Assembly (NCBI RefSeq): GCF_026340675.1
Contig: NZ_JAPEOX010000005.1
Coordinates: 1-64,000, forward strand
Origin: Streptomyces sp. NBC_01264
GTDB lineage: Bacteria; Actinomycetota; Actinomycetes; Streptomycetales; Streptomycetaceae
DNA length: 64,000 nt
Direction: 5' to 3'
Positions within the stretch are counted from its first letter, which is position 1, and every line of letters starts with the position of its first letter. Shown in pieces: positions 2,707-61,903 of this stretch. The position numbers were made by a program, and so were the translations under genes. The notes beneath the pieces were generated by a model, which made no database searches, had not been told where the DNA came from, and saw only the letters and a program-made list of their open reading frames with translations.

Positions 2707-3560
2707 GGCCCTGTCACGTTGTCGGAGCGATCTGGGATGATCTTCGGGTTGCCTGTCCGGGGAGGGGCTCGACCGTGTCGTCTGTGGTGCCGTCGTACAA
2801 GAATCACCGCTACCCGGCCGAGATCATTTCGCACTGTGTATGGCTGTACTTCCGCTTCCCCCTCAGCTTCCGCGAAGTCGAGGAGCTGATGCTCGAGCGG
2901 GGCGTGATCGTGTCCTACGAGACCATCCGCCGCTGGTGCCTGAAGTTCGGCCAGACCTATGCCAATGCCTTGCGCCGCAGGCGTCCGCAGCCCGGCGATA
3001 AATGGCACCTGGACGAGGTCTTCATCAAGATCGGCGGGGTGCAGAAGTACTTGTGGCGGGCCGTGGACGCCGCCGGCAACGTCCTGGACATCCTGGTCCA
3101 GAATCGACGTGACAAGGCTGCGGCCAGGCGTTTCTTCCGTCGGCTCCTCACCTCTACCGGGCGGGTGCCCCGGGTGATCGTCACCGACAAGCTGGCCTCG
3201 TACGGGGCGGCGCATCGTGAGGTGATGCCGTCGGTGGAGCACCGTGCTCACAAGGGGTTGAACAACCGGGCGGAGAACTCCCACCAGCCCACGAGGCAAC
3301 GCGAACGGGCGATGAAAGGGTTCCGCAGCCCGGGCGGAGCGCAGCGCTTCTTGTTCGCGTTCGCTGGGATCTCACCCCACTTCCGACCTCACCGGCACCT
3401 CATGAGCGCCGGCCGCTACCGCTTCGAAATGAGGGTCCGCTTCACGATCTGGGACCAGATCACCGGCGCCGCCGGCGTACCCGCCACCGTCTGAGCAGCA
3501 GACCGCCCGCGGCCTCTCCCTGCTCTCAAACAATCACACCCCCGACAACGTGACAGTGCC
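2707..3560 (+). mobile_element. IS6-family element, subtype II, intact copy 1
   Basis: 854 bp with ends GGCCCTGTCACGTTGTC and GACAACGTGACAGTGCC. Two further copies of the same length (7347-8200 and 23118-23971, both inverted) encode an identical protein and look the same at DNA level wherever I compared them, so these three are recent. The right end directly cuts an ISAs1-family gene. Confidence 0.92.
2775..3494 (+). CDS. IS6-family transposase (subtype II)
   Basis: 239 aa from the GTG at 2775, the start shared by all subtype II copies; the longer frame from 2604 begins outside the element. DDE residues lie in HLDEVFIKIGG, VTDKLASYG and NNRAENSHQPTRQRER, with the HTH-like REVEELMLERGVIVSYETIRRWC near residues 35-55. 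It is complete and presumably active. With the identical inverted copy at 7347-8200 it brackets 3561-7346, which could move as a composite or invert by recombination. Confidence 0.95.
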   Translation: MSSVVPSYKNHRYPAEIISHCVWLYFRFPLSFREVEELMLERGVIVSYETIRRWCLKFGQTYANALRRRRPQPGDKWHLDEVFIKIGGVQKYLWRAVDAAGNVLDILVQNRRDKAAARRFFRRLLTSTGRVPRVIVTDKLASYGAAHREVMPSVEHRAHKGLNNRAENSHQPTRQRERAMKGFRSPGGAQRFLFAFAGISPHFRPHRHLMSAGRYRFEMRVRFTIWDQITGAAGVPATV

Positions 3561-7346: not shown

Positions 7347-8200
7347 GGCACTGTCACGTTGTCGGGGGTGTGATTGTTTGAGAGCAGGGAGAGGCCGCGG
7401 GCGGTCTGCTGCTCAGACGGTGGCGGGTACGCCGGCGGCGCCGGTGATCTGGTCCCAGATCGTGAAGCGGACCCTCATTTCGAAGCGGTAGCGGCCGGCG
7501 CTCATGAGGTGCCGGTGAGGTCGGAAGTGGGGTGAGATCCCAGCGAACGCGAACAAGAAGCGCTGCGCTCCGCCCGGGCTGCGGAACCCTTTCATCGCCC
7601 GTTCGCGTTGCCTCGTGGGCTGGTGGGAGTTCTCCGCCCGGTTGTTCAACCCCTTGTGAGCACGGTGCTCCACCGACGGCATCACCTCACGATGCGCCGC
7701 CCCGTACGAGGCCAGCTTGTCGGTGACGATCACCCGGGGCACCCGCCCGGTAGAGGTGAGGAGCCGACGGAAGAAACGCCTGGCCGCAGCCTTGTCACGT
7801 CGATTCTGGACCAGGATGTCCAGGACGTTGCCGGCGGCGTCCACGGCCCGCCACAAGTACTTCTGCACCCCGCCGATCTTGATGAAGACCTCGTCCAGGT
7901 GCCATTTATCGCCGGGCTGCGGACGCCTGCGGCGCAAGGCATTGGCATAGGTCTGGCCGAACTTCAGGCACCAGCGGCGGATGGTCTCGTAGGACACGAT
8001 CACGCCCCGCTCGAGCATCAGCTCCTCGACTTCGCGGAAGCTGAGGGGGAAGCGGAAGTACAGCCATACACAGTGCGAAATGATCTCGGCCGGGTAGCGG
8101 TGATTCTTGTACGACGGCACCACAGACGACACGGTCGAGCCCCTCCCCGGACAGGCAACCCGAAGATCATCCCAGATCGCTCCGACAACGTGACAGGGCC
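7347..8200 (-). mobile_element. IS6-family element, subtype II, intact copy 2
   Basis: 854 bp, inverted relative to copy 1 at 2707-3560. Ends are GGCACTGTCACGTTGTC at 7347 and GACAACGTGACAGGGCC at 8200. It abuts an older, damaged IS6 copy at 8201. Confidence 0.92.
7413..8132 (-). CDS. IS6-family transposase (subtype II)
   Basis: 239 aa, identical in translation to the gene at 2775-3494, with the same GTG start. The apparent 488-aa frame extending to 8879 is a read-through of this gene with the neighbouring damaged copy and is not one protein. Catalytic residues are intact. Confidence 0.95.
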   Translation of the reverse strand: MSSVVPSYKNHRYPAEIISHCVWLYFRFPLSFREVEELMLERGVIVSYETIRRWCLKFGQTYANALRRRRPQPGDKWHLDEVFIKIGGVQKYLWRAVDAAGNVLDILVQNRRDKAAARRFFRRLLTSTGRVPRVIVTDKLASYGAAHREVMPSVEHRAHKGLNNRAENSHQPTRQRERAMKGFRSPGGAQRFLFAFAGISPHFRPHRHLMSAGRYRFEMRVRFTIWDQITGAAGVPATV

Positions 8201-47948: not shown

Positions 47949-48033
47949 CCGAGACCCCGCCGCGCCCGACGTCCGTACCGCCAGCCCGAAGCCACTCGAA
48001 CGGTTGCTCCCATATGGCCCGAAGAATCACCAG

Positions 48034-48144
48034 CGTTCTTCGATGGCCTGGAGCCGGTCCATCGCGACAGCGGCGGCGGCGGCCTGAGAGAGCAGGGCCT
48101 GGTAGCGGCTCCGGTCGGGGTGCGCGGTGAGGCGGGCGGCCGAC
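48034..48144 (-). pseudogene. C-terminal relic cut by a MITE-like element
   Basis: The minus-strand frame reads AARLTAHPDRSRYQALLSQA, then AVAMDRLQAIEERW, then TGA. It looks like the helical end of a real protein whose start was removed at 48145. I cannot name the family. Confidence 0.35.
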
Positions 48145-48304
48145 GGCACTGTCACGTTATCGAAATTGGCGTGACCACGTCAGGAAATCTGGGCGCCTCC
48201 GAGGTGTCCGCCACGGAAATCTCTCGTCCGACGACGCGATCCGGAGCGCTCGCCGAAAGATCTACTGACGCGTCCATGCCATGCATCGATAACGTGACAG
48301 CGCC
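48145..48304 (+). mobile_element. MITE-like element with IS6-type ends, copy 1
   Basis: 160 bp, non-coding, ends GGCACTGTCACGTTATCGA and TCGATAACGTGACAGCGCC. By eye its reverse complement matches 49025-49184 at every base. The ends match the IS6 terminus GTCACGTTNTC, but the interior is not transposase sequence. Confidence 0.88.
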
Positions 48305-49024
48305 CGCACACCGTCGAACGCTGCCTCGCGCGCGTGACCGGCAACGCCGCAGGTGTCCTTCTCCCCGCGGCCGTGACGCTCATCTGGCACCCGGGGACGG
48401 TCGCGAACGCGGTCCTGGCCGTGCTGTTCATCGGATGTGCCTACCTGGTCGCAGAGACCGGGTACGTCGCCCTGAGCGCAAGCCTCGCGGCAGCGATCAT
48501 CTTCCTTACCTCCGCCACCGGAGCCTCCGAGACCGACGCTGTCGCCACACGCCTCGCGGCCACCGCCATCGGCGGTCTCCTGGCCGTCGCCGCCCACCTC
48601 CTGCTCCCGGACACGCCCGACGCGCAACTGCGCCAACGGGCCGACGAAGCGATCACCGCACACCGCATTTACCTCGCAGCGGCCCTGACCCTCTTCACAA
48701 ACCCCGGCCAGGAGAGCACGGCGGCCGTGCGGAGCGCGGGGCGCCGGGCACTGCGCGCGCGATCGGAGCTGGCATCCTTCGCCCACCGCAAGGACCTGGG
48801 AGCCACAGCCCAGTCGCGGGCGGCCGCAGTACGCGAAACTCTGGACCCCCTGCACACGGCATGCGCCGTCCTCGAAACCCACCAGCCCAGCGGGACAGCC
48901 TCGCCGCCGCTCCCCGAGGCACAGGAACTCGCCACCGCACTGCTGGAGCGACTGCAACCACGCGGCGTCCTCGCGCCCGGGACGGACCCTGGTGAGAGCC
49001 GGGCCGGCTGGGAAGAGTCGGCCG
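48305..49024 (+). pseudogene. FUSC-family permease, internal fragment between two MITEs
   Basis: The open frame reads ARVTGNAAGVLLPAAVTLIW with four to five hydrophobic segments (AVLAVLFIGCAYLVAETGYVAL; AIIFLTSATGASETDA; LAATAIGGLLAVAAHLLLPD), then a cytoplasmic helical part with RALRARSELASFAHR. This is the second half of a fusaric-acid-resistance/aromatic exporter (FUSC) protein. Both ends are cut: the start by the MITE ending at 48304 and the end by the one starting at 49025. Apparent longer frames only read into MITE sequence. Confidence 0.8.
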
Positions 49025-49184
49025 GGCGCTGTCACGTTATCGATGCATGGCATGGACGCGTCAGTAGATCTTTCGGCGAGCGCTCCGGATCGCGTCGTCG
49101 GACGAGAGATTTCCGTGGCGGACACCTCGGAGGCGCCCAGATTTCCTGACGTGGTCACGCCAATTTCGATAACGTGACAGTGCC
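49025..49184 (-). mobile_element. MITE-like element with IS6-type ends, copy 2
   Basis: 160 bp, the perfect inverted counterpart of 48145-48304. It also cuts an IS6 subtype III left end that begins at 49185. The outer ends of the pair are both GGCACTGTCACG-type, so the whole 48145-49184 segment has the layout of a composite element. Confidence 0.88.
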
Positions 49185-49438
49185 CACGCAGACTCAGACC
49201 GAAGCGGTGGTACAGCCACACGCAGTGGCTGATGATCTCCGGCGGGAAGCGGAAACCCCGGTACGACACCGTCTCCACGAGCAGCCCCTCCAGCAACCCC
49301 GACCAGACAGATGATCATCCCACCGAGCGACACCCCCACTCAACCTGACAACGCCAGCCTGAGCACTGGACCAGAACGGGCCCCGGCATGCCCTGACGCA
49401 CCCTCAAACGATCACACCCCCGACAACGTGACAGTGCC
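49185..49438 (-). pseudogene. IS6 subtype III left end and subtype II right end
   Basis: 49185-49355 encodes the first ~30 residues of a transposase (VETVSYRGFRFPPEIISHCVW and on), ending with CTCAACCTGACAACGCC. 49356-49438 is a separate right end (post-stop tail and GACAACGTGACAGTGCC). Neither is functional alone. Confidence 0.82.
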
Positions 49439-50423: not shown

Positions 50424-50977
50424 GGCGTTGTCAGGTTGAGTGGGGGTGTCGCTCGGTGGGATGATCATCTGTCTGGTCGGGGTTGCTGGAGGGCTGCTCG
50501 TGGAGACGGTGTCGTACCGGGGTTTCCGCTTCCCGCCGGAGATCATCAGCCACTGCGTGTGGCTGTACCACCGCTTCGGTCTGAGTCTGCGTGAGGTCGA
50601 GGAGCTGATGCTCGAGCGGGGCGTCGAGGTGTCTCACGAGACGGTCCACCAGTGGACCCGCCGGTTCGGCCCCGCCTACGCCGGCGCGCTGCGCCGGCGC
50701 CGCCCGCAGCCGGGCGACAAATGGCACCTGGACGAGGTCTTCGTCAAGATCAACAAGGTGCAGAAGTACTTGTGGCGTGCCGTCGACCAGGACGGGAACG
50801 TCCTCGACATCCTGCTGCAGAACCGCCGCGACGAGGCCGCGGCCAGGCGTTTCCTCCGGAAACTGATGAAGAAGACCCGCTCGGTGCCCAGGGTGATCAT
50901 CACCGACAAGCTCCGCTCCTACGGAGCCGCCCACCGCATGGTGATGCCCTCGGTGGACCACCGCTCCCACAAGGGAT
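50424..50977 (+). pseudogene. IS6 subtype III, 5' part, cut by IS1182
   Basis: Left end GGCGTTGTCAGGTTGAG and a transposase from VETVSYRGFRFPPEIISHCVW through HLDEVFVKINKVQKY and ITDKLRSYG to VDHRSHKG, where an IS1182 end interrupts it. The catalytic Glu is lost. The break lies at the same codon as in the different copy at 11526. Confidence 0.88.
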
Positions 50978-60906: not shown

Positions 60907-61607
60907 TCCGTGAGGTGGAGGAGATGATGCTCGAGCGGGGTGTGACCGTCTCCTACGAGACGATCCGCCGGTGGTGCCTGAAGTTCGGCCAGACCTACGC
61001 AAACGCCCTGCGCCGGCGCCGCCCGCGGCCGGGCGATAAGTGGCACCTGGACGAGGTCTTCATCAAGATCCGCGGGGTGCAGAGGTACTTGTGGCGTGCC
61101 GTCGACGCCGACGGCAACGTGCTCGACATCCTGGTGCAGAACCGGCTCGACAAGGCCGCGGCCAGGCGTTTCTTCCGCAGACTCCTCACCACGACCGGGC
61201 AGGTGCCCCGGGTGGTCGTCACGGACAAGCTCCGCTCCTACGGGGCTGCGCACCGTGAGGTGATGCCCTCGGTCGAGCACCGCTCCCACAAGGGATTGAA
61301 CAACAGGGCGGAGAACTCCCACCAACCCACCCGGCAGCGGGAACGCGCGATGAAAGGATTCCGCACCGTCGGCGGGGCGCAACGCTTCTTGTCCGCGTTC
61401 ACCGGAATCTCACCCCACTTCAGACCCCACCGACACCTGATGACGGCCGGCCGGTACCGCTTCGAAATGAGAGTCCGCTTCACCATCTGGAACCACATCG
61501 CCGGCGCCACCGGCATGCCCGCCACGGCCTGAACAGCAGACCGCTGGCACCTCACCACGCCCTGACGCGCGATCAAACGATCACGCCCTCGATAACGTGA
61601 CAGTGCC

Positions 61608-61903
61608 CTTCGAAATGAGAGTCCGCTTCACCATCTGGAACCACATCGCCGGCGCCACCGGCATGCCCGCCACGGCCTGAACAGCAGACCGCTGGCACCT
61701 CACCACGCCCTGACGCGCGATCAAACGATCACGCCCTCGATAACGTGACAGTGCCCTTCGAAATGAGAGTCCGCTTCACCATCTGGAACCACATCGCCGG
61801 CGCCACCGGCATGCCCGCCACGGCCTGAACAGCAGACCGCTGGCACCTCACCACGCCCTGACGCGCGATCAAACGATCACGCCCTCGATAACGTGACAGT
61901 GCC
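61608..61903 (+). repeat. Two extra tandem copies of an IS6 right end (148-bp period)
   Basis: The final 148 bp of the preceding IS6 copy (CTTCGAAATGAGAGTCC to GATAACGTGACAGTGCC), including the last ~25 codons and stop, are repeated at 61608-61755 and 61756-61903 without visible differences. Together with the parental end this makes three in a row. Confidence 0.92.

Follow-up and report, generated by a model that had tools for sequence, protein, structure and literature searches.

Inverted sister copies of a 160-bp IS6-group MITE around a split FUSC gene point to an IS6-type replicative inversion in Streptomyces

Intramolecular transposition of IS6 elements in the in-trans configuration inverts the DNA located between the element and its target (PMC7986276). 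As drawn in Figure 6 of that article, the product includes a new copy of the element in inverted orientation and an inverted duplication of the target, and each copy is left with one original flank and one target flank. The same article argues that inverted IS6 pairs halt at the cointegrate stage because the cointegrate is not resolvable, and do not behave as compound transposons. It describes IS6 terminal inverted repeats as 15-20 bp long, with GG tips and the motifs cTGTt and caaa, the latter showing strong though incomplete conservation. That account also includes two IS6 MITEs, 227 and 336 bp long, and the IS6-family MITEs MITEBth2 and MITEHarch3 are named as ISfinder members in another (PMC6807381); as these two sources present them, IS6-family MITEs are few in databases, with two entries (PMC6807381, PMC7986276). 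In the Tn3 family, the structures known as TIME-COMPs and the integron mobilization unit (IMU) are described as two miniature-element copies around a gene-bearing segment, with inverted pairs among them (PMC13367494). The same source speculates that MITESen1, a Tn3-type miniature element, undergoes intramolecular replicative transposition into circles (PMC13367494).

The window analyzed here is a 64,000-nucleotide stretch of Streptomyces sp. NBC_01264 that includes two inverted 160-bp units on both sides of a fragment of a FUSC-family gene. An earlier note, made from the sequence alone, described this structure as a composite MITE transposon that mobilized a captured permease fragment. Our analysis led to a different reading: it is very probable that one replicative event of the IS6 type duplicated the MITE, inverted about 0.7 kb and split the FUSC gene, probably with a resident transposase acting in trans. 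The features of the locus are as follows.

48027..48143, minus strand: C-terminal end of the FUSC gene with its stop codon, about 36 codons, just outside the left MITE and beyond the inversion
48137..48144, plus strand: outer copy of the 8-bp target duplication (CGGCCGAC), outside the left MITE
48145..48304, plus strand: left MITE copy, 160 bp, 100% reverse complement of the right copy
48305..49016, plus strand: inverted segment with FUSC codons for residues about 7-243 (similarity to protein P0001; PF13515)
49017..49024, minus strand: inner copy of the 8-bp target duplication (GTCGGCCG), exact reverse complement of 48137-48144, on the inner side of the right MITE
49025..49184, minus strand: right MITE copy, 160 bp, 100% reverse complement of the left copy
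49185..49355, minus strand: IS6 transposase-end fragment adjoining the right MITE, with a 99.4% match to 50424-50593 and a 100% match to C5:97136-97306

A repeat search of the window identified 48145-48306 and 49023-49184 as inverted arms of 162 nt with 716 nt between them. The arms are 100% complementary, as the earlier note had stated for the units; the element proper takes 160 bp of each arm and the remaining 2 bp are flank. The IS6-like termini were also confirmed. The MITE ends match the 14-mer GGCACTGTCACGTT, which has 30 matches in the window (up to 2 mismatches) versus 0.63 expected from shuffles, and the end pattern GGCRYTGTCACGTT occurs 120 times genome-wide versus 0 for the reversed control. 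The terminal repeat is near-perfect for about 19 bp and goes on imperfectly to about 45 bp. It includes the GG tip and the CTGT characteristic of IS6-type terminal inverted repeats, and the caaa motif is missing from the MITE ends as well as from those of the resident IS6 elements. The left end agrees in its first 19 bp, without a mismatch, with the end of an IS6 element located at C5:67092, which carries a 248-aa transposase frame. Since the likeness to the IS6 elements that were compared is confined to the ends, the idea that the unit could be a fragment of a known larger IS gained nothing from these comparisons: beyond the ~19-bp ends, the MITE was matched against six IS6 ends, and the best of 12 comparisons stood at 29 of 1000 shuffles, uncorrected, with none convincing, so that no parental IS emerged from them.

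The longest stop-free stretch in the unit has 52 codons, too short for a transposase, and 21 whole or partial matches exist in its own genome, in agreement with the MITE-like units with IS6-type ends that had been proposed. It is, like the IS6-family MITEs, short, devoid of a transposase gene and present in several dispersed copies, and it is associated with a target duplication of exactly 8 bp, shared out between the two sister copies. The best reading of the 160-bp unit is a new IS6-group MITE. It resembles MITEBth2 and MITEHarch3 in having an IS6-type end on each side and no open reading frame; going by the published descriptions of these two and of the 227- and 336-bp MITEs, it differs in being shorter and in being found in Streptomyces. 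Another small element, at C5:94125-94196, is 72 bp long, shorter than the MITE, and consists of scarcely more than two IS6-type ends.

The flanks of the two copies reveal how they are related. The reverse-complement match between 48137-48144 and 49017-49024 is exactly 8 bp long, with the ninth base failing on either side, and in the orientation of the element the left flank of one copy is the right flank of the other. Among the 16 MITE-sized end pairs in the 1.0 Mb of genome examined, this was the only valid left/right flank match; in a control of 20,000 random-site draws, any flank match was found in 1.2%. The two copies are also the only MITE pair that is 100% identical, the nearest relatives of the other 14 copies being 73.6-99.4% identical. 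Thus, the locus has what is expected from an intramolecular replicative inversion by IS6, i.e., inverted sister copies and a target duplicated in inverted orientation. Because this flank geometry is the one predicted for the in-trans reaction (PMC7986276), we read the locus as an IS6 replicative inversion. The resemblance to the IS26/IS6 in-trans inversion extends to the inverted segment and the mixed flanks; the difference is that the element measures 160 bp and lacks a transposase gene of its own. That the arrangement is an assembly error or a chance palindrome is extremely improbable. IS6 ends are abundant in the genome and make its assembly hard, but repeats joined in error are not expected to yield a split-gene junction along with the 8-bp signature, and a pair of random sites on the contig shows an 8-bp match of this kind with a frequency of 5e-5.

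The composite MITE transposon of the earlier note, in which a permease fragment captured elsewhere was delivered to this locus, was rejected as the flanks outside the pair are not direct repeats (CGGCCGAC on the left versus CACGCAGA on the right). A composite would not be excluded simply by a lack of direct repeats outside the pair, since the Tn3-derived IMU pairs are reported to be inverted, to lack outer direct repeats and yet to be mobilized in trans (PMC13367494). The TIME-COMPs and the IMU are similar to this locus in their two miniature copies around a gene-bearing segment, but they belong to the Tn3 family and their repeats are 5 bp long, mostly direct and outside the pair (none in the IMU) according to the description available (PMC13367494), whereas those found here are 8 bp long and inverted. 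Delivery as a composite is also contradicted by the location of half of the duplication inside the pair and by the presence of the remainder of the FUSC gene just outside the left MITE. Taken with these points, it is very improbable.

A FUSC_2 piece (PF13515, E 7.5e-9) is encoded between the two MITE copies, in line with the FUSC fragment noticed before. The description of this piece as simply cut at both sides did not hold, because the gene's C-terminal end is found on the other strand, directly beyond the left copy. The comparison was made with P0001, a 280-aa FUSC family protein from Streptomyces sp. NPDC059918 and the one protein obtained at E <= 1e-10 from a large protein collection, in which the 8000 candidates sharing most words, with 0.55-1.75 times the length of the query, were scored. 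Nucleotides 48307-49023 (plus strand) correspond to residues 7-245 of P0001 with 211 of 239 identical (88%), the final residues of the match, up to 245, coming from the 8-bp target copy, and nucleotides 48027-48143 (minus strand) correspond to residues 245-280 with 29 of 36 identical (81%). Body and tail, which were compared separately, correspond to adjoining residues of one 280-aa protein, with the 8-bp target as their junction. When the window was searched with P0001 by tblastn (E <= 0.01), only two places were detected, the body and the tail, the latter with E 7e-12. The GC content at the three codon positions of the tail (0.77/0.59/0.87) is like that of a coding frame, being close to that of the body (0.76/0.58/0.82). 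Identification of the tail comes from one close relative, P0001; a C-terminal profile of 37 FUSC homologues (about 29-37% identity) did not recognize the 38-aa tail, which ranked 556 among 952 listed stretches, and these distant homologues vary strongly in their C-terminal stretch. The FUSC fragment is found once in its own genome, where a second match, at C1:5510927, is a 33% homologue; P0001 has two weak matches elsewhere in the part of the genome examined (28-29% identity, E 1e-4 and 0.004). Since body and tail join at the 8-bp target and match adjoining residues of P0001, the FUSC gene was most likely resident and broken at this locus rather than captured. The contiguity of the segment in the other orientation before the event is thus indicated at the protein level by one homologue.

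These observations suggest the following pathway. A 160-bp IS6-group MITE would have been located beside a FUSC-family gene that was read leftward from the minus strand. The enzyme that cut both ends of the MITE was probably a resident IS6 transposase working in trans, and the ends would have attacked an 8-bp target (CGGCCGAC) in the 3′ part of the FUSC gene, on the same molecule and in the in-trans configuration. Replication would then have added another MITE copy, inverted relative to the first, and flipped the ~0.7-kb segment between the two. Of the two target copies, one would have ended up on the outer side of the new MITE and the other, in reverse complement, on the inner side of the old one, and the outcome would have been a split FUSC gene. 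Considering that the target duplication puts the target on the left, the right copy (49025..49184) would be the older of the two sisters. While the identical pair, the 8-bp signature and, at the protein level and through one homologue, the split gene can be read from the DNA itself, we infer the acting transposase, the single step and the age order of the copies; support is good for both the inversion and the splitting of the gene. A new miniature element has apparently made use of a known mechanism here, and the locus is not a new kind of composite transposon. A local inversion duplication found nowhere else, which the earlier note had named as an outcome that would count against its reading, comes close to this event, except that the duplication would have occurred by transposition and other copies of the unit exist elsewhere in the genome.

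A route in two steps would lead to the same 8-bp arrangement and an identical end structure: a second MITE inserted close to an older one, opposite in orientation and by ordinary transposition with direct 8-bp repeats on its two sides, followed by homologous recombination between the copies that flipped the segment. It would suit the identity of the copies, and host recombination between IS6 copies is described as a documented route of resolution (PMC7986276). However, it needs a simple insertion with direct 8-bp repeats, and such repeats, target duplications of 8 bp being what the earlier note had suggested looking for around solitary copies, were present in 0 of the 16 end-paired MITE copies and in 1 of 42 IS6-sized end pairs in the 1.0 Mb examined. 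It also needs recombination between repeats that are 160 bp long and 0.7 kb apart. We therefore regard the two-step route as unlikely.

The single replicative event requires an enzyme from elsewhere, as the 160-bp unit has no transposase gene, and it was probably a resident IS6 transposase that drove the MITE in trans. Candidates for this activity, which had been attributed to the IS6 transposases before, are plentiful. All four transposases tested on the same contig, two of them in the window, scored above the cut-off of the IS6 family model NF033587, and a tblastn search for IS6-family transposases in the 1.0 Mb examined produced 200 stretches, of which 53 have at least 200 aa. Two inverted pairs of IS6 elements served as positive controls, indicating that the inversion signature occurs in the same genome. 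One of them is in the window.

2707..3560, plus strand (position in the pair, not gene): IS6 element, left copy of the inverted pair, 854 bp, with a transposase match over residues 10-247 of 248
7347..8200, minus strand: IS6 element, right copy of the inverted pair, 854 bp, 100% identical to 2707-3560 inverted

This pair has reverse-complement 8-bp flanks (CGTCGCAT) at the outer left and inner right, like the MITE pair, and on that geometry is read as a second replicative inversion in the window, of about 3.8 kb. The other pair, C8:46673-47537/50269-51133, is 99.4% identical over 865 bp and shows the same 8-bp flank geometry. In each of the four IS6 copies of these pairs a frame of 251-261 codons is open, and its transposase match is close to full length. 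When all 265 IS6-like ends in the 1.0 Mb were considered, nine pairs had reverse-complement 8-bp flanks versus a shuffle mean of 1.15 and a maximum of 7. The two IS6 control pairs are among the nine. One of the others is trivial (67083/67092, where one 8-bp stretch was read from either side), another is an ordinary insertion with direct repeats (C1:6878336-6879203), and some of the matches between contigs may be due to chance.

The remaining two flanks of the MITE pair matched no sister end among the 265 ends, and for that reason an earlier event must be assumed. Together with the IS6 fragment adjoining the right MITE, these unmatched flanks make an earlier deletion or rearrangement beside the first MITE copy likely. 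At a larger scale, the outermost IS6-type ends of a region of ~16 kb that runs from 52096 to C5:68137, past the end of the window, share direct 8-bp repeats (GTTCGTCC); this region is possibly a pseudo-compound transposon, or the repeats may be a chance match among the 265 ends.

The MITE was detected in its own genome only among 392 genus genomes (own included, E <= 1e-6), and in 199 relatives (own included) four others had partial matches of 27-33 bp at most; in these wide searches 2-4 candidates were scored per genome. No MITE was found in PLSDB plasmids, nor was an exact 30-base MITE pattern, which fits one subfamily, found in one genome each for 84,980 species, collections from which the own genome or near kin may be absent. 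The same proviso applies to a search of GTDB for relatives of the FUSC protein, in which none of 117 pattern matches was a relative, to a search of plasmids with the FUSC body (no match) and to one with P0001 (two distant matches, 31-34%). Within the genus, P0001 matched only the own genome among 392 and 393 genomes (own included, overlapping draws), and the left neighborhood of the pair showed only dehydrogenase-gene similarity, and no uninverted locus, in the best 8 of 236 plasmid records. As the uninverted locus was found in no strain, the old gene order is deduced from one homologous protein.

The flanks of two of the 16 MITE copies were compared with plasmids. The left flank of the copy at C5:124702 follows a polymorphic-toxin-type gene of S. 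goshikiensis at 80% as far as 2 bp from the MITE; for the right flank, no match was found in the 6.9 kb of the S. goshikiensis locus examined. In this one case the break in the flank would fit a breakpoint. It is quite possible, and we propose it tentatively, that this undescribed family of 160-bp IS6-group MITEs, with the enzyme supplied in trans, is an agent of replicative rearrangement genome-wide (inversions, adjacent deletions and replicon fusions), found in the smaller contigs and contig-end regions; hence none of the 16 copies would look like a simple insertion.

Among the open-access literature consulted, no report of an IS6-type inversion made by a MITE was encountered. The natural footprint described here suggests that a 160-bp IS6-ended element without a transposase can act like IS26, inverting DNA and splitting a gene, and the MITE offers a small substrate for asking whether IS6 transposases work in trans. 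Annotators who meet two identical MITEs in inverted orientation on either side of a gene fragment should look for an 8-bp duplication in inverted orientation before labelling the structure a composite transposon.

Two other arrangements were observed in this genome. The most closely related MITE copies after the identical pair, C5:124702-124862 and C8:19064-19224 (L003 and L004), are located on two contigs and are 99.4% identical without matching flanks. In the window, nucleotides 61460-61903 consist of a 148-bp unit repeated three times in perfect tandem, with an IS6-type terminus at the end of each.
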